Shown piece after piece: positions 11,346-23,792 of a DNA stretch of 64,000 nucleotides. Both the position numbers and the translations under genes were made by a program. The stretch spans positions 2,542,001 to 2,606,000 of the forward strand of contig CP134604.1 in the NCBI GenBank assembly GCA_021555105.2, in the 5' to 3' direction. Under the pieces are notes generated by a model. The model ran no database searches and was not told where the DNA came from. It worked only from the letters and a program-made list of their open reading frames with translations. Position 1 is the first letter of the stretch, and each line of letters begins with the position of its first letter. Source of the stretch: Thalassospiraceae bacterium LMO-JJ14. Lineage in GTDB: Bacteria; Pseudomonadota; Alphaproteobacteria; Rhodospirillales; Casp-alpha2.

Positions 11346-12196
11346 TGAAACGTGTTCTCGACCAACCTGAGAAAGTCCTCGATATCATGCGCGGGGTTGC
11401 CGACGCGGAAATCATGCCGCGCTTCAAGACCCTTGAGGCGCATGAAATTTCCGAGAAAAAACCCGGCGATCTTGTAACCATTGCCGACAAGGAATCCGAA
11501 GCCGCCCTGACCCGGTATCTGCAGAGCCTGCTGCCCGGCAGTGTCGTGATCGGCGAGGAGGGGCATCATGCCGACCCGGCGACGTTGAACGCGCTTGGCG
11601 ACCCGGGGCCGGTGTGGATCGTCGACCCGGTCGACGGCACCTATAATTTCGCGCACGGCAAATCGCCGTTTACGGTGATCGTCGCACTGGCCGAAGACGG
11701 TGAAACAAAAGCCGGCTGGATTATCGATCCGGTACGTGGCGATGCGGTTTGGGCCATTCCGGGCAGCGGTGCCATGCAACAGGACGCTGCGGGAAAATCC
11801 ACGGTAATTCACCGGCCGGAACGGACCTACGAAGCATCGACCATGACCAGCGGCCCGAAGCTGCGCTCCCGGCTGGCACGTGCCGCCGCCGAGCTGAGGA
11901 CACCGTTACCCAACCTGATAGACCGTTACCGCTGTGCCGGGCGTGAATACATGGACATCATCACCGGAAAGATCGATCTGACGCGATACGGCGGCATCCT
12001 GAAACCCTGGGACCATGCCGCGGGAGCGATGATCGTCGGCGAGGCCGGGGGGCAGGCCCGGGGCATACTCAGCAACGAGCCTTACCGATTGACGGCATCG
12101 CTCGGCACGCAGTCGATCGGCGTCGTCGGCGACGGCGCGAACTGGGCGGCATTCCGCAATCTCGTCAAACGTGCCGACGAACTGGCAAATCTCTAA
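11345..12196 (+). CDS. Inositol monophosphatase family protein
   Basis: Mg-dependent sugar/inositol phosphatase of the IMPase/FIG superfamily, 283 residues. The metal-binding motifs are all visible: GEEGH (about residue 67), WIVDPVDGTYNF and WDHAAGAMIVGEAGG near the C-terminus. It is coupled to the preceding small gene by a one-base overlap and ends tail-to-tail with the minus-strand glycosyltransferase gene, sharing bases at 12193-12196. The nearby sugar genes make a role in sugar-phosphate dephosphorylation possible, but the substrate (inositol, histidinol or another phosphate) is not determined. Confidence 0.9.
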   Translation: MKRVLDQPEKVLDIMRGVADAEIMPRFKTLEAHEISEKKPGDLVTIADKESEAALTRYLQSLLPGSVVIGEEGHHADPATLNALGDPGPVWIVDPVDGTYNFAHGKSPFTVIVALAEDGETKAGWIIDPVRGDAVWAIPGSGAMQQDAAGKSTVIHRPERTYEASTMTSGPKLRSRLARAAAELRTPLPNLIDRYRCAGREYMDIITGKIDLTRYGGILKPWDHAAGAMIVGEAGGQARGILSNEPYRLTASLGTQSIGVVGDGANWAAFRNLVKRADELANL

Positions 12197-13149
12197 TCGA
12201 GATTGACGGTGTCTTTGATGATGTAGTGCGGCCGGCCGCGGACATCGCGGTAAATGCGTGCGATATACAGCCCGAGAATCCCCATCCCACACATCAGACC
12301 GCCCCAGAGCGTCAGGATAAAAAAGACCCAGCCGGCGACGCTGCACGCCCAGCCGAAAAGCGCTGCCAGTCCCGTCAGGACAAGGCCGCCCAGCCCCAGT
12401 GCCGCTCCGGCCAGACCGGCATAAAGGACCAAATAAAGCGGATACATCGAAAACGACGTCAGGCCGTCGACGAATGCCTTCACCGGTCCGCGCGAAAACA
12501 CACCCGGGAAATGCGATTCTCCGGCCGCACGCGGAGCGCGCCGGTAACGGACTTCGGCGCGCTCGAAGCCGACCCACTGCGTCAGACCGCGCAGATACGG
12601 CTGCGCTTCGGGTAGTTTCAGCAACTCATCCACCGCGCGGCGCGATAACAGGCGGAAATCCCCGGCCTCGATCGGCATATCGATTTCCGACAGGGAATTG
12701 ATAATCCGGTATGCAACACCCGTCGCCCACAAACGGAACGCCGTTTCACCATCTCGGCTCAGACGGCGCGTATAAACCAGATCCGCGCCTTCGCGCCATT
12801 TTTCGATCAGCTCCGGAATGACTTCGGGCGGATCCTGAAGATCCGTATCCATATAAACGACAGCGTCGCCGGTGCTGTGCTTCATCCCTGCCAGCACGCA
12901 CTCACCGACACCGAAATTGCGCGACATGTTGATGATTTTGATGGCTTTATCCGATTTCGCCCGTGCCATCAGGATATCCAGCGAGGAATCCAGCGAGTTG
13001 TCGTTGACGAAAATCATTTCATACGGGCAGCCCACGCCCTTGAACATAGCCGAGACACGGTCGATCAGTTCTTCAAGCACTTCGGCTTCGTTACGAAACG
13101 AAAAGACGACGGATATTTTGCTTTTATTGCCGCGCGCGTCAGTAGCCAT
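12193..13149 (-). CDS. Family 2 glycosyltransferase with C-terminal membrane helices (polyprenyl-phosphate type)
   Basis: A 318-residue GT-A glycosyltransferase resembling DPM1/GtrB enzymes, which move a sugar from a nucleotide to polyprenyl phosphate on the cytoplasmic membrane face. The N-terminal domain carries VVFSFRNEAEVL, the VNDNSLDSS loop and the metal-binding YMDTDLQDPPEV. Two hydrophobic segments lie at about residues 235-260 and 268-295. It is the last gene of a minus-strand sugar cluster and could prime or load a modified sugar made by its neighbours. The exact donor is unknown. Confidence 0.88.
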   Translation of the reverse strand: MATDARGNKSKISVVFSFRNEAEVLEELIDRVSAMFKGVGCPYEMIFVNDNSLDSSLDILMARAKSDKAIKIINMSRNFGVGECVLAGMKHSTGDAVVYMDTDLQDPPEVIPELIEKWREGADLVYTRRLSRDGETAFRLWATGVAYRIINSLSEIDMPIEAGDFRLLSRRAVDELLKLPEAQPYLRGLTQWVGFERAEVRYRRAPRAAGESHFPGVFSRGPVKAFVDGLTSFSMYPLYLVLYAGLAGAALGLGGLVLTGLAALFGWACSVAGWVFFILTLWGGLMCGMGILGLYIARIYRDVRGRPHYIIKDTVNLD

Positions 13150-13221
13150 GGGTCCCCCGGAAAATGTTGGCCCAATATCCGCCTGAAAAGCAAAGTGTCA
13201 AGGGTTGCAGCGCAGGTGCGA

Positions 13222-14226
13222 TCAGGCGAATTCCAGGCCGTCCGGCTCATAAACGACGATCTTGGAGCCGACATTATCGATGGCGATCTTGACGGATACC
13301 AGATCCTTGAGCGCTTCGCGCACCGCCGGCTGCTTGCCGGGCTCGACGATAAACAGCATGAAGCCGCCGCCACCGGCGCCAAGCAGCTTGCCGCCCGATG
13401 CACCGGCACCGACCGCGGCGTCAAATATCTCGTCGACAAGCGGCGTCGAGACGCCATCCGCAAGCTCGCGTTTCAACTGCCAGGACTGCTGCAAAAGATC
13501 ACCGAGATCGCGGATCGGGCGGTTAGCGTCCTGCAGGATCGCCTGCGCCTCATCGACCATCTGCATCATGGTCGAGAGCTGCTTTTCCCTGGCATCGATA
13601 TTCTGAATCTGTTTTTCCGCCATCACGGGCGCAAGCCGCGACAGGCCGGTAAACACAAGCATCAGATGGTCTTGCAGGTCATCGCGGCGCTCGCGTCTGA
13701 CCATCGCCGGCTGCACATCAAACTCGCCGGTTTTCAGGAAATCAATTCGGTTCAGCCCACCATAGGCCGCCCAGATCTGATCCTGACAGCCGACCTGTTC
13801 CTTGATGACATCATGCTCGATGCGGATCGCTTCGCGGGCCAGATACCGCTTCGAGAGCATTTTGCCGTCAAACGCCGCGAGCGCATTGGTCAGGCCGACC
13901 GTGAACGACGAGCTCGAACCCAGGCCGGAACGCGCCGGCAGATCGCCATCGTGGTGGATTTCGACACCTTCGCCGGGCTGATGCTCGCTAAGCACGCCCT
14001 TGACCGCCGGATGCTTGATCTCATCGATGGTCTTTACGTTCTCAACGACCGAATAGACGATCCGGTGCTTGTGCTCGAAAAACGGCGGCAGACGGCGGAC
14101 AGATATGTAGCAGTACTTGTCGATGGCGAAACCGAGCACGGCACCGCCATGCTTTTCGTACCATTTGGGGTAGTCCGTGCCGCCGCCGAAAAGCGACACC
14201 CGGAACGGCGTACGGCTGATGATCAT
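13222..14226 (-). CDS. GHMP-family sugar kinase (HddA-like)
   Basis: A 334-residue kinase of the GHMP superfamily, closest in pattern to D-glycero-D-manno-heptose 7-phosphate kinase. The N-terminal motif SRTPFRVSLFGGGTDYP, the ATP loop PARSGLGSSSSF and the C-terminal GGKLLGAGGGGFML are present. It overlaps the upstream nucleotidyltransferase by 4 bases, so the pair likely performs successive 1-phosphorylation and nucleotidyl activation of a sugar phosphate. gmhA and gmhB homologues are not in the window, so heptose as substrate is a family-based guess. Confidence 0.85.
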   Translation of the reverse strand: MIISRTPFRVSLFGGGTDYPKWYEKHGGAVLGFAIDKYCYISVRRLPPFFEHKHRIVYSVVENVKTIDEIKHPAVKGVLSEHQPGEGVEIHHDGDLPARSGLGSSSSFTVGLTNALAAFDGKMLSKRYLAREAIRIEHDVIKEQVGCQDQIWAAYGGLNRIDFLKTGEFDVQPAMVRRERRDDLQDHLMLVFTGLSRLAPVMAEKQIQNIDAREKQLSTMMQMVDEAQAILQDANRPIRDLGDLLQQSWQLKRELADGVSTPLVDEIFDAAVGAGASGGKLLGAGGGGFMLFIVEPGKQPAVREALKDLVSVKIAIDNVGSKIVVYEPDGLEFA

Positions 14227-14972
14227 ATTTTCCCCTCGTCGGTGGCACTTTCACCGATAACTTTGGCCGCCTGCAGCAGGCTTTCGGGCGTGCCGATATC
14301 GATAAAAGGTACGTTACCGGCATCATAAGCGGCAAGCGTTGAGGCGGGAAGTGACTGAAATACATCGCGTTCCAGCGACGGACCGTCCGTGTTTGCAACG
14401 ATTTCCCACATATCGCGGGCGAACGCATACACGCCCGCATTGATCAGCCCCGGTCCGGCATCGGGATTTTTTTCCTGGAAGCTGCGAATCCTTCCCTGGC
14501 CGTCGACCTCGATCTGCCCGAAACGTCCGGCATCGTCGACGCGAACGCAGAGCAGGGAGGCGGGAGCGTGCGCGTCCACATGTGCCTGCACAAAAGCACC
14601 GAGATCGGCACCAATCCAGCTATCGCCATTCATCACAATAGACGTATCCGACTTCACCTGCGGACGGACCAGCCGAAGCGCTCCGGCAGTGCCGAGCGGC
14701 TTGTCCTCGATGACGCTCTCGACGGCAAGGCCGGTGCGGGGGTGCGCACGGACATAATCGACAATGCGCGCGGCCTGATGCCCGAGGCTCAGGATGATGC
14801 GCGTGGCCCCGAAACCCTGCAGCCAGTCCAACAGATAATCGAGGTAGGTGCGCGTGCCGATCGGCGCCAGCAGCTTCGGCACATCGCCCAGCACCGGCTG
14901 GATGCGTGTGCCGAGACCGCCGGCGAGGACGACGATGTCAGTGTTGGAGAGGGCGTCAGACATCAAACTCAC
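14223..14972 (-). CDS. Sugar-1-phosphate nucleotidyltransferase (HddC-like)
   Basis: A 249-residue nucleotidyltransferase of the NTP_transferase fold. It has the nucleotide-binding signature VVLAGGLGTRIQPVLGDVPK, the sugar/metal-binding MNGDSWIG, and IDIGTPESLLQA near the C-terminus. It resembles HddC, which makes GDP-D-glycero-D-manno-heptose, and lacks the left-handed helix extension of GlmU/GlgC types. Its stop overlaps the GHMP kinase start. GDP rather than CDP or dTDP activation is inferred from HddC resemblance and from the GDP-sugar (ColD-type) enzyme nearby. Confidence 0.85.
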   Translation of the reverse strand: MSLMSDALSNTDIVVLAGGLGTRIQPVLGDVPKLLAPIGTRTYLDYLLDWLQGFGATRIILSLGHQAARIVDYVRAHPRTGLAVESVIEDKPLGTAGALRLVRPQVKSDTSIVMNGDSWIGADLGAFVQAHVDAHAPASLLCVRVDDAGRFGQIEVDGQGRIRSFQEKNPDAGPGLINAGVYAFARDMWEIVANTDGPSLERDVFQSLPASTLAAYDAGNVPFIDIGTPESLLQAAKVIGESATDEGKI

Positions 14973-14973
14973 T

Positions 14974-15101
14974 CGTCATCCCGGGCGACGCCGGACGTTT
15001 TCCGGGGGAGATCCGGGACCCATTTCGCCGCGAGCGTCATTTCGCGTCCATGGTCGTGTTGCCGGTGTTTCGATGGGTCCCGGCTCAAGGCCGGGATGAC
15101 G
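14974..15101. repeat. Dispersed palindromic repeat (CGTCATCCCGG type)
   Basis: The 128-base element fills the gap between two cluster genes. Its ends are inverted: CGTCATCCCGG at the left and CCGGGATGACG at the right, with further short GGGACCC/GGGTCCC pieces inside. Related elements lie at 16667, 38355 and 40114. It encodes no protein and looks like a REP/RPE-type intergenic repeat. Confidence 0.75.
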
Positions 15102-15117
15102 AGAGTGGGCACAAACC

Positions 15118-16620
15118 TCACTCCGCGGCCTCCAGTTCCTCGACCAAACGGCGTTTCAGGCGGTGTTCGGCCATTTCCTCGATATGTTTGCGGGTATCCC
15201 AGCCGAACTGCTGCGTCACCATATCGAGGTAACGCTTGCCTTCGAAATAGTCGTGAAACGCCAGATCGCGGAAGCGCAGCACTTCAGCCGCCGAGACTTT
15301 CTCGGTCGGCAACGGGCGGCAGTCATAGCTGTGCTGCGAATAACCGGCCCAGCTTTCCGGCAAAGGCCAGTCGTTCTGGATCGCCATCGCGTACAACGGC
15401 GAACCGGGGTAAGCCATCGCCGAATAGAAATTGGCATATTCGCAATTGAGTTCGAGCGCCAGATCCAGCGTCGCCTGCATGCTTTCCATGTCGTCATCGG
15501 GCAGACCGAAGATGAAATTGCCCGCCACCTTGATGCCGGCGCTCTGGATCATCCGCACGATGCCTTTGATTTCGTCCTGATCGAAGGCCTTGTCAGCGCC
15601 GTCTCGCACCAGATCGGAGCCGGATTCGATGCCCAGCGCCAGCCACTGGAATCCAGCCTTGCGCAGCTTTTCAAGCATCTGCGGCTTGACGGTATCGACA
15701 CGCGCGTAAGCCCAGATATTCAGATCGTCGATGCCGCGCTCGATAATGCCGTCGCACACCGCCATCACGTGGCGTTCGTTGAGCACGAACATCTCATCGA
15801 TGATCTTGAAGGTTTTGACGCCGTATTTTTCCCGCAGCATGGCGATTTCCTCGACCACCTTCTCGGGTTTGCGCATGCGGTAGCGGTTGATATCGAACGG
15901 CGCATTGATGCAGCAGAACACACACTTGAACGGACAGCCGAGCGAGGTATAGATCGACGCATACGGCATGCGGTTTTCCAGCTCGCCGAAGCATTGCCAG
16001 TTGTGCGCCCGGTATTTGTCCATCGGCAGCAGGTCCCAGACATCGCCGTGCAATTCGGTGTCCAGGTCCTTGATCAGCGGCGCCGGCGGATTGATTGTGA
16101 ATTCACCGTCCTTCATCCAGACCAGACCCGGCACGTCCGAAAGGGCTTCCGGTGTCGATCCGGCGTCGATGGCGGCCAGAAGACCGGTCACCGTTTCCGG
16201 CCCTTCACCCTTGCAGGCATATTCCGCCGCTTCCTCGTTCAGCGTCTGTTCGGGCAGCGCCGAGACATGCCCGCCGACAAAGATAACCGGAATATCCGGG
16301 GTTATGTCCTTGATCGCGCGCGTGGTCTCGCCGGCGGCGACCATCTGCTGCGTCGATGCCGACGGCTGATGGCCGAACACAATCATCGCCACCAGCTTCG
16401 GGTTCAGCTCGGCGATGCGCCCGGCAACGCTTTCCGTGCCCATGCCTTCGGCTTCGGAATCCAGGATGACGATTTCGTGGCCCTTGTCGCGCACATAGCC
16501 ACCGATCAGGCGGCACCACAGCGGCGGTTCGATCGCCGTCAGTTCGTTACCGAGCTGCTGGTAGATTCGCTCACGCCCACCGGGATTGACGAGCACCAGA
16601 TCGGGTCGGGTCGTTGTCAT
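15118..16620 (-). CDS. B12-binding-domain radical SAM protein
   Basis: A 500-residue class B-type radical SAM enzyme. The N-terminal domain (residues 1-150) has the cobalamin-binding Rossmann look (GHEIVILDSEAEG, VIFVGGHVSA) without the DxHxxG base-on motif, as in many family members. The SAM-cluster motif is Cys229-x3-Cys233-x2-Cys236 (CPFKCVFC), followed by the GIESGSD segment. It lies inside the sugar cluster between the nucleotidyltransferase and epimerase genes. It may methylate or rearrange a sugar or lipid at an unactivated carbon. No substrate can be named from sequence. Confidence 0.88.
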   Translation of the reverse strand: MTTTRPDLVLVNPGGRERIYQQLGNELTAIEPPLWCRLIGGYVRDKGHEIVILDSEAEGMGTESVAGRIAELNPKLVAMIVFGHQPSASTQQMVAAGETTRAIKDITPDIPVIFVGGHVSALPEQTLNEEAAEYACKGEGPETVTGLLAAIDAGSTPEALSDVPGLVWMKDGEFTINPPAPLIKDLDTELHGDVWDLLPMDKYRAHNWQCFGELENRMPYASIYTSLGCPFKCVFCCINAPFDINRYRMRKPEKVVEEIAMLREKYGVKTFKIIDEMFVLNERHVMAVCDGIIERGIDDLNIWAYARVDTVKPQMLEKLRKAGFQWLALGIESGSDLVRDGADKAFDQDEIKGIVRMIQSAGIKVAGNFIFGLPDDDMESMQATLDLALELNCEYANFYSAMAYPGSPLYAMAIQNDWPLPESWAGYSQHSYDCRPLPTEKVSAAEVLRFRDLAFHDYFEGKRYLDMVTQQFGWDTRKHIEEMAEHRLKRRLVEELEAAE

Positions 16621-16666
16621 GCGTTTTCCGTTTAAGTTAGTGATTCTGCGCGTTTATAGCACTTAA

Positions 16667-16742
16667 CGTCATCCCCGCGAAAGCGGGGACCCAGTTGGGC
16701 ATCACCGGGACTTACCAGGTTCCCGCTTTCGCGGGAATGACG
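16667..16742. repeat. Dispersed palindromic repeat (CGTCATCCCCGCGAAAGCGGGG type)
   Basis: The element begins CGTCATCCCCGCGAAAGCGG and ends with the inverted form CCGCTTTCGCGGGAATGACG. Each end can itself fold as a short hairpin. It belongs to the same broad intergenic repeat group as 14974-15101 and 40114-40212 and fills most of the gap between the epimerase and radical SAM genes. Confidence 0.8.
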
Positions 16743-16753
16743 AAGTTTGTTTT

Positions 16754-17698
16754 TCAGACGTTCCCGTACAGGCTGTTGCGGATCATGCGGTAGCCCTTGA
16801 TCAGTTCCTTGATCCCGTCGTCGAGCGAATACGCGGGCATGAAGCCGGTCTTCTCTATTTTCTCGTTCGATACGATGTAATCGCGTTTGTCCGGGTCTTC
16901 GCCGATCGGCGCTTCCATGAACACGAAGCTGGGAATGTGCTCGTGGATTTTCTCGCACAACTCGCGTTTCGACAGGTTGGCGTCCGACAGGCCGACGTTA
17001 TAAGGCTCGTTCTTCATGCTCTCGAAATTCTCAAGCCCATGCAGGAACGCACGCGCGACATCGCGGATATGGATATAGTTGCGCTTGAAGTCGGCTTCGA
17101 ACAGGACAACGGCGCGGTCGTGAACGGCGCGGTAGACGAAATCATTGACCAGCAGGTCAAGCCGGAAGCGGGGCGCCATACCGAACACGGTGGCAAGGCG
17201 GAAGCTGATTGCGTTGCCGCGTTCGAGCGCCGCCGCCTCGGCCTCGACCTTGGTCGTGCCGTACAGTGATATCGGCCGGAGCGGAGTCTCTTCCGTGCAG
17301 AATTTTCCTTTTTCACCAATGCCATAACCGGAATTGGTAATCGGCATAAGGATACGCTGATCCTTCGACAGCAGCTTCAGCATCATGATCACCGCGTCGC
17401 GGTTGATGGTCTCGGTACCGATCTGATCGTTATTGCAGAGCGGGGCCCCGACCAGCGCCGCCAGCGGGATCACCACGTCGGCGTCCTTGACCAAACCCTT
17501 GATCAGGCCTTCGTCGCGGGCATCGCCGCGCACCACGTCGAAATCCGGGTTGGCGCAGACATGGGCGAGGGGGTTCTGCTTGAACATGAAATTATCGAGC
17601 ACCGTGACCTTGTGCCCCGCGTCCAGAAACGCCGGCACCATGATGGAACCCAGATATCCGGCGCCGCCGGTGACCACGATGTGCAGTTTTTCGCTCAT
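16754..17698 (-). CDS. NAD(P)-dependent epimerase/dehydratase (extended SDR)
   Basis: A 314-residue extended short-chain dehydrogenase acting on nucleotide sugars. The cofactor loop is VVTGGAGYLGSIM and the active site tyrosine sits in LYGTTK. The usual catalytic Ser/Thr lies in the ITNSGYGIG segment. The subfamily is not the canonical GalE, RmlB or GMD, judged by the unusual MFKQNPLAHVC region after the first strands. It sits between the DegT-type and radical SAM genes on the same strand. A 4-reduction, epimerisation or 4,6-dehydration role in the same sugar pathway is inferred. Confidence 0.87.
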   Translation of the reverse strand: MSEKLHIVVTGGAGYLGSIMVPAFLDAGHKVTVLDNFMFKQNPLAHVCANPDFDVVRGDARDEGLIKGLVKDADVVIPLAALVGAPLCNNDQIGTETINRDAVIMMLKLLSKDQRILMPITNSGYGIGEKGKFCTEETPLRPISLYGTTKVEAEAAALERGNAISFRLATVFGMAPRFRLDLLVNDFVYRAVHDRAVVLFEADFKRNYIHIRDVARAFLHGLENFESMKNEPYNVGLSDANLSKRELCEKIHEHIPSFVFMEAPIGEDPDKRDYIVSNEKIEKTGFMPAYSLDDGIKELIKGYRMIRNSLYGNV

Positions 17699-17717
17699 GC
17701 TTTCGTCTCTCTCCCAT

Positions 17718-17818
17718 CGTCATCCTGAACAAGGCCCATCGGACCGTGATACAGGATCCATAAATTCACACGCCGGCACTTGCCCCGATATAGGCCCTGA
17801 ATCGCGTTCAGGGCGACG
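17718..17818. repeat. Intergenic repeat region with CATCCTGAA/TTCAGG inverted pieces
   Basis: The gap between two minus-strand cluster genes starts with CGTCATCCTGAACAAGG and ends with the self-complementary CCCTGAATCGCGTTCAGGG followed by CGACG. It resembles the CGTCATCC repeat group and the hairpin at 61063-61083. No coding sequence is seen. Confidence 0.6.
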
Positions 17819-17835
17819 GTGATGTTTTTCTCCGC

Positions 17836-19011
17836 TTAAGCCGGCTGCGCGGCTTCGTCCAATACCTCATGGAGCTTTCTGATTTGCGGCGTCAGATCGT
17901 GCGGGTGGTTGCCGCAGAAAAAGCCGTTGTCATGTGCGATATTGGCATTGGCGACCTCGCCAACGGTTTCATAGTCGTAAAACTCGGTCACATCGTGGCG
18001 CAGAATGCAGCCGCCGGTAATGATTCGATACCCGATATCCGCAGCCTCAAGCGCCCTGAACACGCGTTCGCGGTCAATATTCATCGCCGGATTGAGAATG
18101 ATCGGGAAGCAAAAACTGGAATGAACGCCGTTTTCACGCTGGATAATGAAACGCTCGTCCGGCCCAAGGAGTTCGGTCAAAAGCGCCAGGTTCTTGCGGC
18201 GTTGCGCCGTAAATCCGGGCATTTTCTTGAGCTGCTCGCGGCCAATGGCGCCTGACATTTCCGTCGGCCGCACGTTGTAGCCCGGCAGAATGAAGCGGTA
18301 AGCCTCGAAGAAGTCATCGCTGCGGCCTTCAAAGACCGGAGAATCCTTGGGCAGATCACGCGTCCAGCCGTGCGCCCGAAGTGCCCGCATCAGATGATAC
18401 GTTTCCAGGTCGTTCGTCAGGATCATGCCGCCTTCCATCGTCGCGATATGGTGCGAGAAGAAGAAGCTGAACGTGTTCACATCGCCGAACGTGCCTGCTT
18501 TTTTGCCGTTCAACTCGGCATCCAGGCTCTCGCAATTGTCTTCCATGAAGACAAGGCCGTGTTTATCGCAAAACGCACGCATCACATCCAGATCGCAGGG
18601 ATTGCCGAGGATGGACACAGCAACCAGCATTTTCGTGTTCGGCGTGAGCGCGTCTTCGAGCTGCGCGACATCCATGTTGAGGGTATCAAGATCGATATCG
18701 ACGATCTTCATCTTGAGACCGTACTGCTGCAGCGGATGATAGGTCGTGGCCCACGAAACGGCCGGAACAATCACTTCATCTCCGCGCTTTAACTTATTGT
18801 TTTTCTTAAAAAACTGCGCAGCAACGGCAATCAGGTTCGCGCTCGACCCCGAGTTCACCATGACGCCGTAATTCATGCCGTGATAGGCGGCGAACTCTTC
18901 CTCGAACGCCTGAACATTGGCGCCCATGGTGTACATATCGCCATCGATCACACGCTGGATCGCGGCAATTTCCTCATCGGCCCAGCTCGACGCCGCCAGC
19001 GGATAGAACAT
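17836..19011 (-). CDS. DegT/DnrJ-fold PLP/PMP enzyme with Lys-to-His change: ColD-type sugar 3-dehydratase
   Basis: A 391-residue aminotransferase-fold enzyme. The motif MVNSGSSANL binds the cofactor phosphate and MEDNCES holds the pyridine-contacting Asp. Where aminotransferases of this family have the Schiff-base Lys, it reads FSFFFSHHIATMEGG, with His at 187 and 188. ColD (GDP-4-keto-6-deoxymannose 3-dehydratase) uses His188 at this position, and the RfbH/E1 group shares the change, so C3 deoxygenation rather than transamination is expected. The gene lies 8 bases after the ThDP enzyme gene. A nucleotide-linked 3-deoxy-4-keto sugar is the likely product. Confidence 0.85.
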   Translation of the reverse strand: MFYPLAASSWADEEIAAIQRVIDGDMYTMGANVQAFEEEFAAYHGMNYGVMVNSGSSANLIAVAAQFFKKNNKLKRGDEVIVPAVSWATTYHPLQQYGLKMKIVDIDLDTLNMDVAQLEDALTPNTKMLVAVSILGNPCDLDVMRAFCDKHGLVFMEDNCESLDAELNGKKAGTFGDVNTFSFFFSHHIATMEGGMILTNDLETYHLMRALRAHGWTRDLPKDSPVFEGRSDDFFEAYRFILPGYNVRPTEMSGAIGREQLKKMPGFTAQRRKNLALLTELLGPDERFIIQRENGVHSSFCFPIILNPAMNIDRERVFRALEAADIGYRIITGGCILRHDVTEFYDYETVGEVANANIAHDNGFFCGNHPHDLTPQIRKLHEVLDEAAQPA

Positions 19012-19019
19012 AGGGGCGT

Positions 19020-20909
19020 TTACTCCATGGTCCGGGTGCCTTCGGTACCCGGCTTGTCCGAATTCGGGTTGACGATGTCCGGCATGGCCGGGGTTTCCCA
19101 GCCTTCGATCGGCTCGATGAACATGTTGGCGCGGAATTCATCGCGCGGCAGGTACGGATACATGTCCTCGACCGGTGTCGACCAGCCGAAGATGCGCGGC
19201 TCATAGGTGTGATATTCGTGCATGTTGACATCGCATACGGCCGGGCCGTCAAACGCCATCACCGTATCGATCATTGTGTCGATTTCGGCATTCCTGGAGA
19301 TTTCGAAGGTCTGCACATCGAACCCCTTGGCGACATTGACGAAGTTCGGCGGGTTATAACCGACCGGACCGCAAGCTTCGCAGCGGCCCTGGAAGTTGGT
19401 TTCCTGGAACGCCTTGGTGATGCCGTAGATATGGTTGTTGAGGATGAACGTCTTCACTTTCATCCCGTAGTTTTTCATGGTCTGCAGTTCCTGAATGTTC
19501 AGGATCATACCGCCGTCACCGATGATGGCGATGACGTTGCGGTCCGGGTCTGCCATCCACGCGCCCATGGCGCCGCACATGGAAAAGCCCATCGGTGCAT
19601 TGCCGTTGTTGGTCAGGTACTGCTCGCCGAACTTGGTCTCGAAGGCATGCGCGACGACCACGGACGTGCCGCCCAAATCGCACACCAGAATGTCGTTGCC
19701 GCCCATTTTTTCGGACAGGCGGCGCATGAAGGCATAGGGATGCACATATTCCTGGCCCTCGAACTGGTAAGCACCGTCCTTGAACATTTCCGGGCGCACC
19801 GGATCGTACTTGATACGCCATTCACGGCACTGCGCATTCCACTTTTCGTGGGTCGGCAGGTTGCCGGCGGCGCGCTCTTCCTTGAGACGCTTCAAAAGCC
19901 GCTGGCAGAAATCCCGTACATCGCAAAGGATGTTCACATCGAACGGCACCTGTTGCAGACGCGGCTGCAGCAAAGCCTTGTCCAGATCGACGACGTATTT
20001 TTTCGCCTCGCGGGCAAAGGTGTGGATGTTGCCGCCGGTGATACGCCCGGAAATCCTGGATCCGATCCCCATCAGAAGATCCGAGTTCTGAATGCCGAAA
20101 TTGCGTCCGGCACCGCCGTAAGTCCCGATCCGCCCGCCGTAATACTCGAAATCGGAGGTGATGATATCCAGCCCGTTCCACGTGGGGTAGGCGGGGACCA
20201 TCGCCACTTCGGCGATTTCACGAACCAGATCGACCGCATTGCCGATCCGCGCGCCGCCGCCGACGATAAACGTCGGGCGCTCGGCCTTTTTCAGGTCTTC
20301 GATATACTGCTCGACCTGCTGGTCGACGACATCGGTGGCATAATGCACCCGCGCCGCGTCGGCATCGAAACCGAACAGTTCGTCGGGATTGATCTCGGCT
20401 TTCTGGATATCGATCGGAATATCGATCACACACGGCCCCGGACGGCCTTCCTCGGCCATGAAGAAGGCTTTCTCCATTTCGAAACGGATGTCCTTGGGAT
20501 CGGTAATCATCACCGCATGCTTGGTAATCGTCTCGACGATCGACACCACATCGGTTTCCTGGAAACCGACCTGACGCACCGACGGGTCGGGACGCATGAA
20601 CTGCGAATTGATGTTGCCGGTGATGAAGATACACGGCACCGATTCGTAGAAACAGTTGGCTATCGGGTTGAGCAGGTTGAGCGCACCCGGCCCGCTGGTG
20701 GCGATGGCTGCGCCCGGCACACCTTTTACGCGGCCGTAGCACTCGGCGGCAAAACCGGCGCCCTGCTCGTGCATGGTCGCCACATATTCGGTTTTTTCGG
20801 CGCGGGTAAAGGCGTCGATCAGGTGGCCATTGGCCGATCCGTAAAGAACGAAAACCTTGTCGATCCCGCGATCGCCCAGAAAATCGATGACGTAGTCAGC
20901 TAGCTTCAT
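19020..20909 (-). CDS. Thiamine-diphosphate-dependent enzyme (acetolactate-synthase-like)
   Basis: A 629-residue ThDP enzyme of the acetohydroxyacid synthase/pyruvate decarboxylase family. The N-terminal Pyr domain has the catalytic Glu48 (ATMHEQGAGFAAECYGR), a central domain follows, and the PP domain has the GDGGMILNIQELQ...NN ThDP/Mg motif. It diverges from housekeeping IlvB (for example VLYGSANGHLIDAF near the start, and a long C-terminal extension after residue 570). Encoded just upstream of the ColD-type enzyme, it may attach a two-carbon unit to the keto-sugar as YerE does in yersiniose synthesis. This link is inference; an ordinary keto-acid ligase or decarboxylase is the alternative. 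Confidence 0.85.
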   Translation of the reverse strand: MKLADYVIDFLGDRGIDKVFVLYGSANGHLIDAFTRAEKTEYVATMHEQGAGFAAECYGRVKGVPGAAIATSGPGALNLLNPIANCFYESVPCIFITGNINSQFMRPDPSVRQVGFQETDVVSIVETITKHAVMITDPKDIRFEMEKAFFMAEEGRPGPCVIDIPIDIQKAEINPDELFGFDADAARVHYATDVVDQQVEQYIEDLKKAERPTFIVGGGARIGNAVDLVREIAEVAMVPAYPTWNGLDIITSDFEYYGGRIGTYGGAGRNFGIQNSDLLMGIGSRISGRITGGNIHTFAREAKKYVVDLDKALLQPRLQQVPFDVNILCDVRDFCQRLLKRLKEERAAGNLPTHEKWNAQCREWRIKYDPVRPEMFKDGAYQFEGQEYVHPYAFMRRLSEKMGGNDILVCDLGGTSVVVAHAFETKFGEQYLTNNGNAPMGFSMCGAMGAWMADPDRNVIAIIGDGGMILNIQELQTMKNYGMKVKTFILNNHIYGITKAFQETNFQGRCEACGPVGYNPPNFVNVAKGFDVQTFEISRNAEIDTMIDTVMAFDGPAVCDVNMHEYHTYEPRIFGWSTPVEDMYPYLPRDEFRANMFIEPIEGWETPAMPDIVNPNSDKPGTEGTRTME

Positions 20910-21094: not shown

Positions 21095-22570
21095 TCAGCT
21101 TCTTTTGCGGCAGCGGTAAATATCGAAGTATTCGCGGCTTTCCGTTTTCTCAAAGGCTGCGTTAAACGAATCACGGAACGGCTGTCCATAGACGTCTTTG
21201 CCGTAATAACCGATCCAGGCATATGGCTGTTCTCCTGCGGGGATAAGCCAAATATCCGTCGCGCATCTCTCGATCATATCCAGCGTTGCCTGTGTGATCT
21301 CGATCCCCCAGACAGTGGTGTCAATGAGGATCGAGGTATCGAGGGAATAAGGATGCCCGCCGAAAACCAGCCGCGTCCGTTGAAAGGTGCGGCGATAACT
21401 CTCGTTGCTATCACCGATGCCGATTTCGATCGTTTTGTCCGCATAGGCTGCGGCGATGCTTTCGATTTCAGCGCTGACCGCGCCAGCCTCATCCCAGTTC
21501 AGGTTGCGCACAAACCGCTTTTCCGCGGGCAGGGCAATCACACTCAAAACCACACAGACGATCACAGCCGTCACCATGGCGGACGGCTTGGCAGAAAGGT
21601 GGTGCAGCCCACGCGCGGCAAGATCGAAAGCCACAGCGGCAAACGGCAGCAAATAATACATCCCGGCACCGGGCTTTTGAGCTGGGTACAACACCGCTGT
21701 CAGCGCCAGCAAGAACCCGGTCAGCAAAATGACCGTATCACGACGCTCGCCGGCGGGCAGTCCGCGCCATGCCCATCCGACAAAGAGCAAAGCCGGCAAC
21801 ACGTAGAATCCTGCATATCGAAGAACCTTGATCAGCCCGTCCATTGAGTTCGGCTTGTCCGCCATCAGGCCGACCAGATCGAGCATGTACTGCAGTTCGA
21901 ATGCCGGAGTCAGAAAAGGCAGCGCAGTTATGCAGATCGCAACAACGACACTCACGATGCAGGCCATAATCCCGTCGCGGAACAGCATCAACAGACCGAA
22001 AGGCAGGAAGTAGATTGCTGCGAAGACCTTGAGGCCCATGGCAATGCCGATCATCACGCCGAACCCGACGGCCCGGATCCAACGCCCACGAACAGACGCA
22101 TTATTGAGCCACGTCCCCAGTGCCACACAGAGCATCATGAACGTCTCCGGGCGATCCCAGATACTGGCCGGCAGGTTCACAACAACAATCGCAGCCATAC
22201 AGGCGATCGTGAACGCCGCGACAGCAAGGCCACGGCGTGCCTGCGCCACGCCACTGACGGCAATGGTGAAGATCAGCGCGACAATCCCCGATGCCTTGCC
22301 GATGGCGACGGAGGCGCCAAGTACTGAAAACACTGCCGCATGGATCAGATAAAGGTAGGGCCCGTATAGGTTTGTGATCCGCGCGGCATCATTGATCGGC
22401 AGGTATATCGGGTGCCCGTCCAGCAAGCGCCATGCAAGTGCAACGATATTCGGCTCACCCGTGTCGACATATCCCGGATAAAGCAGATACGCCGTTCCAA
22501 GCGCGAGAATGTTCAGTGCGGCAAAAAGACCGACGGCAATCAGTGCATACTGGGCGGCGCGGCTTACCAT
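21095..22570 (-). CDS. Multi-spanning membrane protein, GT-C glycosyltransferase-like
   Basis: A 491-residue integral membrane protein with about ten hydrophobic segments and a soluble C-terminal part (from about residue 400). The first periplasmic loop carries acidic residues (GYVDTGEPN), as in GT39/GT87-type GT-C transferases that use polyprenyl-phosphate sugars. The ATG at 22570 is chosen because it gives an N-terminal membrane anchor and a 7-base spacing from the FkbM gene; a longer frame would run into that gene. It could attach sugars in the periplasm using a donor made by the GT2 enzyme at 12193. No precise family is recognised. Confidence 0.7.
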   Translation of the reverse strand: MVSRAAQYALIAVGLFAALNILALGTAYLLYPGYVDTGEPNIVALAWRLLDGHPIYLPINDAARITNLYGPYLYLIHAAVFSVLGASVAIGKASGIVALIFTIAVSGVAQARRGLAVAAFTIACMAAIVVVNLPASIWDRPETFMMLCVALGTWLNNASVRGRWIRAVGFGVMIGIAMGLKVFAAIYFLPFGLLMLFRDGIMACIVSVVVAICITALPFLTPAFELQYMLDLVGLMADKPNSMDGLIKVLRYAGFYVLPALLFVGWAWRGLPAGERRDTVILLTGFLLALTAVLYPAQKPGAGMYYLLPFAAVAFDLAARGLHHLSAKPSAMVTAVIVCVVLSVIALPAEKRFVRNLNWDEAGAVSAEIESIAAAYADKTIEIGIGDSNESYRRTFQRTRLVFGGHPYSLDTSILIDTTVWGIEITQATLDMIERCATDIWLIPAGEQPYAWIGYYGKDVYGQPFRDSFNAAFEKTESREYFDIYRCRKRS

Positions 22571-22577
22571 CACTGTC

Positions 22578-23630
22578 TTAACCGGCTTCCAGGACCGTAA
22601 AACGATCCTCCTTGAGATCGGCGACGCGATCTTTATGACAGGCAAATACATTCATCTGTTGCGACAGCATGAAGCGCTGTTCGCTGGCAAACGGGACGAT
22701 GGCAAGGCGGCAGTTGGCATCCGGTGTTTTTGTGCCGATATCGGGGAACACCACCGGCCCCTCGTCGGTCATAACCCGCCAGCAGGGCTGATAGAGGGCA
22801 TACCCGGCATCTTCGAGAAACTTAAGGGCCCGTAGTGTACGCATCGGTTTGGCGGGGGTCAGCCAGCTTTCAACGATGATGAAGGGTTTGCTCTCCGACA
22901 GCATACGCGATGCGCCTGAAAGCGCTTCATACTCATGATCCTCGACATCCATCTTGATGACGTCGGGCCGTGCATCCAGATCGTCCAGGCGCTGCATCGG
23001 AACCTCAATACGTCCGGCGCCTTCGCGCCCGACGCCGCTGCCGGCAATACGATTAAGCCCTGTTTCCTTGTCGTGGATCGCCATCTCGGCGGTGCCGACT
23101 TGCGATGACAGCGCGATGCCGTGCACGGTGATACGGTCCTGCAGACCGAAACCGCCGATCAGCCCCTCAAGATCGGCGCGGGTCACCGGCGCCGGCTCAA
23201 AGCTGTGTATCGCGCCTTCATAGCCCGCCAGCGCAGCGGCATAGAAAGTGAAGTATCCCCAGTTGGCGCCGATATCGAAGAACGTCCGCTTGCCCCGCAA
23301 CAGCGAGGAGAGCAGGGCAGAGACATCCGGCTCGTAACCCGAGGCTTCATTTTCGAAATAGAGACTGCCGAAATGCGGGTGGCGGGCATCGAAGCGGGCC
23401 TGTCGCTCACCCGATGCGGTCGACAATGACACCACCCCCTGACCACCCAGTTTCAGGACATCCTGCGCGAAATCATAAGCGAGCCGCACCGGCTTTTTGC
23501 ACAATCGCTTGTTCCAGCGCTTGGCATAGGTGTGATGCGCGGCGCGGGCCAGTTTCGCGATCAAGGGCAACTCGGATGCCTTGAAGGGCTTCGCCGGCAA
23601 TGCCGGGGCAATCAGGGTTTCTGTTTCCAT
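22578..23630 (-). CDS. FkbM-family SAM-dependent methyltransferase
   Basis: About 350 residues with a class I methyltransferase fold of the FkbM type, usually O-methylating sugars or polyketides. Visible motifs are TFFDIGANWGYFTFYAAAL (SAM motif I), SFEPAPVTRADL (motif II) and the FkbM hallmark DVIKMDVEDHEYEAL. The ATG at 23630 is chosen; TTG or GTG codons 27-30 bases upstream would extend it slightly. It precedes the GT-C-like gene by 7 bases, so both likely form one unit. A sugar O-methylation role fits the glycan locus. Confidence 0.85.
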   Translation of the reverse strand: METETLIAPALPAKPFKASELPLIAKLARAAHHTYAKRWNKRLCKKPVRLAYDFAQDVLKLGGQGVVSLSTASGERQARFDARHPHFGSLYFENEASGYEPDVSALLSSLLRGKRTFFDIGANWGYFTFYAAALAGYEGAIHSFEPAPVTRADLEGLIGGFGLQDRITVHGIALSSQVGTAEMAIHDKETGLNRIAGSGVGREGAGRIEVPMQRLDDLDARPDVIKMDVEDHEYEALSGASRMLSESKPFIIVESWLTPAKPMRTLRALKFLEDAGYALYQPCWRVMTDEGPVVFPDIGTKTPDANCRLAIVPFASEQRFMLSQQMNVFACHKDRVADLKEDRFTVLEAG

Positions 23631-23792
23631 AAGGGTTTGTCCAACATCGGCATTCACCAATCAAGCCTTACCGTCGCATTGTGCTTCTTGTTGTGTTGCT
23701 CGTTGTCTTGCTTGGGCTTTCCTGCTTTCCGCGTGTATGGTTCACTCGAATTTCAAAAGCCGTGCCGGACAGGCACAACCGGGACCTATGTC

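Follow-up and report, generated by a model that had tools for sequence, protein, structure and literature searches.

Seven open reading frames, all on the minus strand and lying exactly within positions 12193-20909 of a 64,000-nucleotide stretch of the Thalassospiraceae bacterium LMO-JJ14 genome (contig CP134604.1, positions 2,542,001 to 2,606,000; referred to as the window), probably direct the synthesis and transfer of a guanosine diphosphate (GDP)-activated 3-deoxy heptose that carries a carbon branch on C4, as judged from their sequences. The genome is a single contig of 3.89 Mb. A preliminary description of this DNA had placed the seven-gene run at these positions and tentatively assigned it to a deoxy or branched-chain nucleotide sugar; all seven reading frames were confirmed there, their family identities were borne out by Pfam, NCBIfam, and PDB matches, and the type of product is strongly supported by gene co-occurrence, the clade of the thiamine diphosphate (ThDP) enzyme, and the relationship of the short-chain dehydrogenase/reductase (SDR). 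Two refinements are made here: the substrate is probably GDP-heptose, not a 6-deoxyhexose, and the role of the SDR is probably C4 oxidation. In the order of transcription, the genes are as follows.

19020-20909, minus strand: ThDP-dependent enzyme of 629 amino acids, predicted to be a YerE-like C-branching enzyme (Pfam TPP_enzyme N/M/C; JanthE, PDB 8rph; tree)
17836-19011, minus strand: putative ColD-type C3-dehydratase of 391 amino acids, dependent on pyridoxal or pyridoxamine 5'-phosphate (PLP/PMP) (ColD, PDB 2gms; catalytic His188)
16754-17698, minus strand: extended SDR of 314 amino acids, predicted to be a Cj1427-type GDP-heptose C4-dehydrogenase (PDB 6vo6)
15118-16620, minus strand: radical S-adenosylmethionine (SAM) enzyme of 500 amino acids with a B12-binding domain (Pfam B12-binding and Radical_SAM)
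14223-14972, minus strand: putative HddC-like sugar-1-phosphate guanylyltransferase of 249 amino acids (PDB 6jq8)
13222-14226, minus strand: putative HddA-like heptose-phosphate GHMP kinase of 334 amino acids (PDB 3k85), overlapping the HddC-like gene by 4 bases
12193-13149, minus strand: GtrB/ArnC-type family 2 glycosyltransferase (GT2) of 318 amino acids (PDB sll0501 (GtrB) and ArnC; NCBIfam PgfS)

In the proposed pathway, the Cj1427-type SDR would oxidize C4 of GDP-heptose, and the ColD-type dehydratase would remove the C3 hydroxyl group to give GDP-D-glycero-3-deoxy-4-keto-heptose; the steps up to this compound have been established for homologs acting on GDP-heptose (PMC10680097). The ThDP enzyme would then decarboxylate a 2-oxo acid and add the acyl unit at the C4 ketone to form a branched tertiary alcohol, a step assigned from its family, context, and replacement pattern (see below). 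The B12 radical SAM enzyme may tailor the product or the branch, with C-methylation favored and diol dehydration possible. Finally, the GtrB-like GT2 would load the sugar onto polyprenyl phosphate, and a GT-C-like protein encoded upstream may then, in the periplasm, attach it to a glycan or lipid of the cell surface. We infer the joint operation of these steps here, along with the radical SAM tailoring, the GT2/GT-C transfer, the donor, and the final structure. On balance, the data favor a widely shared and undescribed route to a C4-branched 3-deoxy heptose (at least nine carbons), with any of three unrelated ThDP types introducing the branch and a further modification by a B12 radical SAM enzyme, present in several phyla and in marine T4-like phages, some of which may use a PanB homolog to prepare a hydroxymethylated donor.

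The PLP protein was similar to ColD (PDB 2gms; 1.6e-119, 49.7% identity), and the His at position 188 in FFSHHIATMEGG (codon at 18448-18450) was aligned with His188 of ColD. Since this catalytic His replaces Lys, the protein is predicted to be a ColD-type 3-deoxygenase, that is, a C3-dehydratase and not an aminotransferase. Orthologs of the ThDP enzyme (at least 53% identity in cellular genomes) were found in Rhodospirillales relatives, many Nitrospira, Pelagibacteraceae, an acidobacterium, candidate phyla, and one archaeal bin. Most of these loci had SDR, HddA, HddC, PLP, and radical SAM genes as neighbors, and some had only part of the set; the neighboring PLP protein had His at the catalytic position in 33 of 33 distinct loci, even at approximately 30% identity to the window protein. 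The preliminary description had proposed a check on co-occurrence outside this strain, and the genes were indeed found together far beyond it (Nitrospira, Pelagibacteraceae, and other phyla). Among 398 genomes drawn from the phylum, 17 carried an ortholog of the SDR and 14 an ortholog of the radical SAM enzyme, with both present in 13 (hypergeometric P of approximately 4e-20), mostly within approximately 11 kb of each other; this co-occurrence rules out chance gene proximity. In the close relative G214, the run (L036) was devoid of the SDR and PLP genes, which were located together on another contig.

The strongest evidence for a C-branching role was that different ThDP types replace one another at the locus. 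A YerE-like ortholog was found within the 398-genome draw only in the window's own genome, with few candidates scored per genome in that search. Transketolase-type split ThDP pairs occurred in ten loci (L125-L129, L131, L133, L136, L138, and L139) and pyruvate-dehydrogenase-E1-type enzymes in L124 (as a fusion) and L142, the Pfam assignment of these replacement genes being based on representatives. L137 contained the transketolase pyrimidine-binding half only; no ThDP gene was present in the stretch examined of L135 and L143, and a transketolase pair (L134) was located on another contig of the genome of L135. Three groups of ThDP enzymes are listed as producers of C-branched sugars, namely those of the decarboxylase, the alpha-keto-acid-dehydrogenase, and the transketolase type (PMC12247030). 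Wherever a locus from the draw carried a His-type PLP gene, it also had a ThDP gene (the half gene only in L137); in L140 and L141, the two loci whose PLP gene is of the Lys type, the stretch examined contained neither ThDP nor radical SAM genes. The association between the His-type PLP gene and the ThDP gene gave a Fisher P of 0.013 in this small sample. L140 and L141, which carry the same SDR together with HddA, likely encode a 4-amino-heptose pathway, as their gene content suggests.

The same genes were also found in viral contigs. A scan of IMG/VR yielded 51 contigs with relatives of the ThDP enzyme, approximately 40 of them at 48-60% identity, and several contigs of marine viruses (in the range L172-L210) contained the radical SAM, ThDP, HddA, PLP (His), and SDR genes, in this order, in one contiguous stretch. 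In L177 (8487-15815), this stretch was located between the helicase and nuclease genes of a contig with T4-like genes (major head protein, head maturation protease, UvsW-type helicase, and gp46/47-type nuclease). That the same genes are kept together in compact phage genomes provides independent support for a functional unit. Phage-borne modules were seen only in IMG/VR contigs: the collection of phage records contained no close relative of the ThDP enzyme (best 31%) and radical SAM matches of only 26%, and the collection of plasmid records contained no ThDP relative at 1e-80. Probably a cyanophage, L074 (QCKN01000003.1; 130.6 kb; filed as a Prochlorococcus single-cell genome) encodes a UvsX-like recombinase and matches L178 of IMG/VR in extent and coordinates.

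Of the 51 viral contigs, 35 (e.g., L178-L187, L193-L197, L200-L202, and L211-L220) encode a homolog of PanB (ketopantoate hydroxymethyltransferase) close to the ThDP gene, contigs with a classical YerE-like ThDP enzyme and an E1-type dehydratase among them; this homolog is a candidate enzyme for making the donor for C-branching. PanB homologs were found mainly in phages, and class I aminotransferase genes adjoined the ThDP gene in Nitrospira and others, which suggests a purpose-made 2-oxo acid donor in the lineages with either neighbor.

The radical SAM protein matched PF02310 (B12-binding; 65 bits) and PF04055, and its CX3CX2C motif (Cys229/233/236; 15913-15936) was invariant in an alignment of 23 members. 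It may plausibly be a B12-dependent C-methylase, as its B12-binding domain and a KedN5-type C-methylase at L037, a locus in which no enzyme of the window type was detected, suggest. Alternatively, at this step only, an AprD4-like radical 1,2-diol dehydratase may deoxygenate the heptose, which has a C6-C7 vicinal diol, instead of methylating it; we regard this as a tentative and rather unlikely alternative. AprD4, the diol dehydratase of aminoglycoside sugars, was the best PDB sequence match and also the best match in a fold search with the predicted model (pLDDT 92): Z score of 30.6 with a root-mean-square deviation of 3.0 over 414 residues, followed by MgmA (27.5), OxsB (26.3), and TsrM (26.1), with CysS within 26-27.5. 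On the other hand, TsrM and AprD4 were level in Foldseek, the NCBIfam model of AprD4 scored only 75 bits vs. 178 for BchE, and the clear B12-binding domain and the KedN5-type enzyme at L037 also speak against diol dehydration. In many Nitrospira loci, a second B12-type radical SAM gene, closest to the ApyD/HpnJ models, directly follows the ThDP gene (e.g., L057:11910-13532).

The sugar is most likely GDP-heptose, on the evidence of sequence relationships and gene content. The SDR showed 54.4% identity over 307 residues to PDB 6vo6 (E value of 5.2e-112), and the next PDB entry followed at 1.5e-21; by this high identity and clear gap to other SDRs, it belongs to the same type as 6vo6, which we take to be Cj1427, the GDP-heptose C4-dehydrogenase of Campylobacter jejuni. 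The kinase had as its best PDB match the D-glycero-D-manno-heptose 1-phosphate kinase 3k85 (9.2e-38), and the nucleotidyltransferase the "putative 6-deoxy-D-mannoheptose pathway protein" 6jq8 (3.9e-34). Cj1427 oxidizes GDP-D-glycero-manno-heptose at C4 using 2-oxoglutarate, and its in vitro combination with a C3-dehydratase yielded GDP-D-glycero-3-deoxy-4-keto-heptose (PMC10680097). C4 oxidation by the SDR would supply what ColD-type dehydration needs. The same genome also encodes, outside the run, GmhA and a GmhB-like protein.

The same chemistry on a hexose, in which a colitose- or yersiniose-like GDP-3-deoxy C4-branched hexose is formed from GDP-mannose and HddA/HddC are a generic kinase and guanylyltransferase, appears improbable. 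ColD itself acts on a GDP-hexose, the top NCBIfam model for the nucleotidyltransferase was mannose-1-phosphate guanylyltransferase (153 bits), and the HddA and HddC scores were 132 and 113 bits, under the cut-offs of 600 and 300, respectively. We therefore call the two proteins HddA/HddC-like only, in spite of their best PDB matches. However, a hexose substrate accords poorly with the closeness of the SDR to the presumed GDP-heptose C4-dehydrogenase, and Pfam and NCBIfam found no equivalog of GDP-mannose 4,6-dehydratase among the genes of the run. Furthermore, heptose genes occur within several homologous clusters: GmhA (sedoheptulose-7-phosphate isomerase) in L067, L072, and L138, and RfaE/HldE-type heptose kinase and adenylyltransferase genes in the phage versions of the module.

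The ThDP protein retained the catalytic Glu48 (in HEQ) and the GDG...NN ThDP motif. Its best PDB match was JanthE (8rph; 5.8e-97), ahead of acetohydroxyacid synthase (AHAS). JanthE is a YerE-like enzyme coupling 2-oxo acids to ketones (PMC12188165); YerE-like enzymes branch C4 on cytidine diphosphate (CDP)-hexoses, and ErwE prefers functionalized donors, such as 4-hydroxy-2-oxo acids (PMC12247030). In a phylogenetic tree that included JanthE (on a long branch) and left out YerE and ErwE, the window orthogroup formed its own clade (support 100/100) within a larger clade (98/98) comprising JanthE and the ThDP proteins that adjoin E1 (RfbH)-type dehydratases, the latter proteins showing 31-35% identity to the orthogroup. 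The other decarboxylase-type ThDP enzymes of the genome fell outside this larger clade. The preliminary description had considered that the ThDP and SDR proteins might belong to clades with unrelated functions; they grouped instead with YerE-like enzymes and with 6vo6 (presumably Cj1427), respectively. The ThDP gene is, moreover, genetically linked to a nucleotide-sugar C3-dehydratase, through the His-type PLP gene, both here and in the 33 distinct loci.

It is doubtful, and even less probable than a hexose substrate, that the ThDP enzyme is AHAS-like and supplies a different portion of the glycan with a small acyloin- or acetolactate-type precursor, leaving the sugar as an unbranched 3-deoxy heptose. 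NCBIfam placed the protein nearest to acetolactate synthases (356 bits; cut-off of 538), but the higher PDB score of JanthE and the separation from the other decarboxylase-type enzymes of the genome in the tree disfavor a plain acetolactate synthase. In addition, a swap by transketolase- and E1-type ThDP enzymes is unexpected for an acetolactate role, and the run contains no C4-reductase to finish an unbranched sugar.

Several observations weigh against the C4-branched heptose pathway. The radical SAM step is unexplained within it, and the other steps were present in L139 and L142 without the window-type radical SAM protein. No branch-ketone reductase (a YerF counterpart) was found in the run. 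L126 and L127 contained the SDR, the transketolase-type ThDP enzyme, the radical SAM enzyme, and an RmlC-like epimerase, with no PLP gene in the 20 kb examined. The module therefore does not require 3-deoxygenation, and these two loci possibly make branched heptoses retaining the 3-hydroxyl group. The heptose assignment is also affected by the HddA and HddC scores under the cut-offs and by the reliance on 6vo6 being Cj1427: the PDB title of this entry is "putative sugar-nucleotide epimerase/dehydratase". Finally, an amino sugar pathway, with the PLP protein as a transaminase making a 4-amino heptose, is highly improbable: the protein belongs to the DegT/DnrJ/EryC1/StrS aminotransferase family and a Lys-type PLP gene accompanies the same SDR in L140 and L141, but a ColD-like His substitutes for the catalytic Lys, here and at every ThDP-linked locus examined, which contradicts this reading.

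The enzyme families are all known ones, and the predicted end product falls within an established class, that of the C-branched nucleotide sugars. As in the capsule heptose pathways of C. jejuni (HddA/HddC/GmhA/GmhB, Cj1427, and the HS:5 C3-dehydratase; PMC10680097), the window would combine a GDP-heptose precursor, Cj1427-type C4 oxidation, and PLP-dependent C3 dehydration. In C. jejuni, however, a C4-reductase reduces the 4-keto group, whereas the window run has a ThDP enzyme and a B12 radical SAM enzyme and no C4-reductase; the enzyme pair in that study was a laboratory mix from different serotypes, whereas the SDR and dehydratase in the window are a native pair accompanied by the ThDP enzyme. 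The yersiniose and erwiniose pathways (YerE, ErwE, and JanthE; PMC12247030, PMC12188165) likewise use a C3-dehydratase followed by a decarboxylase-type ThDP enzyme branching C4 of a 3-deoxy-4-keto nucleotide sugar, but they act on CDP-6-deoxyhexoses with an E1 (RfbH)-type dehydratase, and the window enzymes act probably on GDP-heptose with a ColD-type dehydratase. ColD of the colitose pathway is the closest characterized relative of the window PLP protein and shares its catalytic His; colitose, however, is a 3,6-dideoxy hexose without a branch, for which ColC performs the last step, and the run contains neither GDP-mannose 4,6-dehydratase nor ColC. The radical SAM enzyme shares the Rossmann-like B12-type domain and radical SAM barrel of the AprD4/TsrM/OxsB/KedN5 class, but forms its own conserved family beside ThDP genes.

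The preliminary description knew of no characterized cluster with this exact combination, and we found neither a C-branched heptose nor a GDP-heptose C-branching pathway described in the open-access literature. Nor did we find there any description of the combination on GDP-heptose, of its radical SAM partner, of the exchange among three ThDP types, or of carriage by phages. If correct, the pathway would provide a natural home for GDP-3-deoxy-4-keto-heptose, a compound obtained until now from enzyme mixtures in vitro, predict a surface sugar for Nitrospira, relatives of Pelagibacter, and others, tie a radical SAM family to nucleotide-sugar branching, and offer new biocatalysts for tertiary alcohols. 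The phage carriage suggests that viruses use the module to build or alter host or virion glycans.

Regarding transfer, the GT2 matched sll0501 (GtrB; 4.4e-60) over residues 11-316, including the C-terminal membrane part, as well as ArnC (4.1e-40) and NCBIfam PgfS (218 bits); these matches identify it as a GtrB/ArnC-type enzyme, predicted to move the sugar from the nucleotide to polyprenyl phosphate. Two further genes are located upstream of the ThDP gene.

21095-22651, minus strand: putative GT-C-like membrane glycosyltransferase of 518 amino acids, upstream of the ThDP gene (weak fold matches; gene context)
22578-23660, minus strand: FkbM-family methyltransferase, upstream of the GT-C-like gene (PF05050 and TIGR01444)

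The GT-C-like protein had no Pfam match, and the top eight fold matches of its model (pLDDT 56) were all GT-C proteins (DPY19, AftA, PglB, and ArnT among the top), albeit weak (best E value of 0.007). As in the window, the gene precedes the ThDP gene in the close relatives L034, L035, and L036, and the FkbM gene is likewise upstream of the GT-C-like gene in L034 and L036. The GT-C-like gene likely belongs to the set, and its product, a probable GT-C glycosyltransferase, would use the polyprenyl-phosphate sugar; the FkbM methyltransferase possibly belongs to the set. Polyprenyl-phosphate sugar synthases are similarly paired with a GT-C-like membrane protein in one locus in the GtrB/GT-C and ArnC/ArnT systems, but these differ from the window in their sugar, and the GT-C assignment in the window is weak.

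In L149, L150, L156, and L159, from relatives of the same order (one of the same genus), an E1-type dehydratase, a YerE-like ThDP enzyme, and a GT2 were encoded, together with a GT-C protein in L149 and L150; these loci are apparently yersiniose-like CDP-sugar counterparts of the window set. Between the SDR and radical SAM genes of the window (16667-16742), a 25-base inverted repeat (92% complementary) with a 26-base spacer was found, which looks like a dispersed intergenic repeat.

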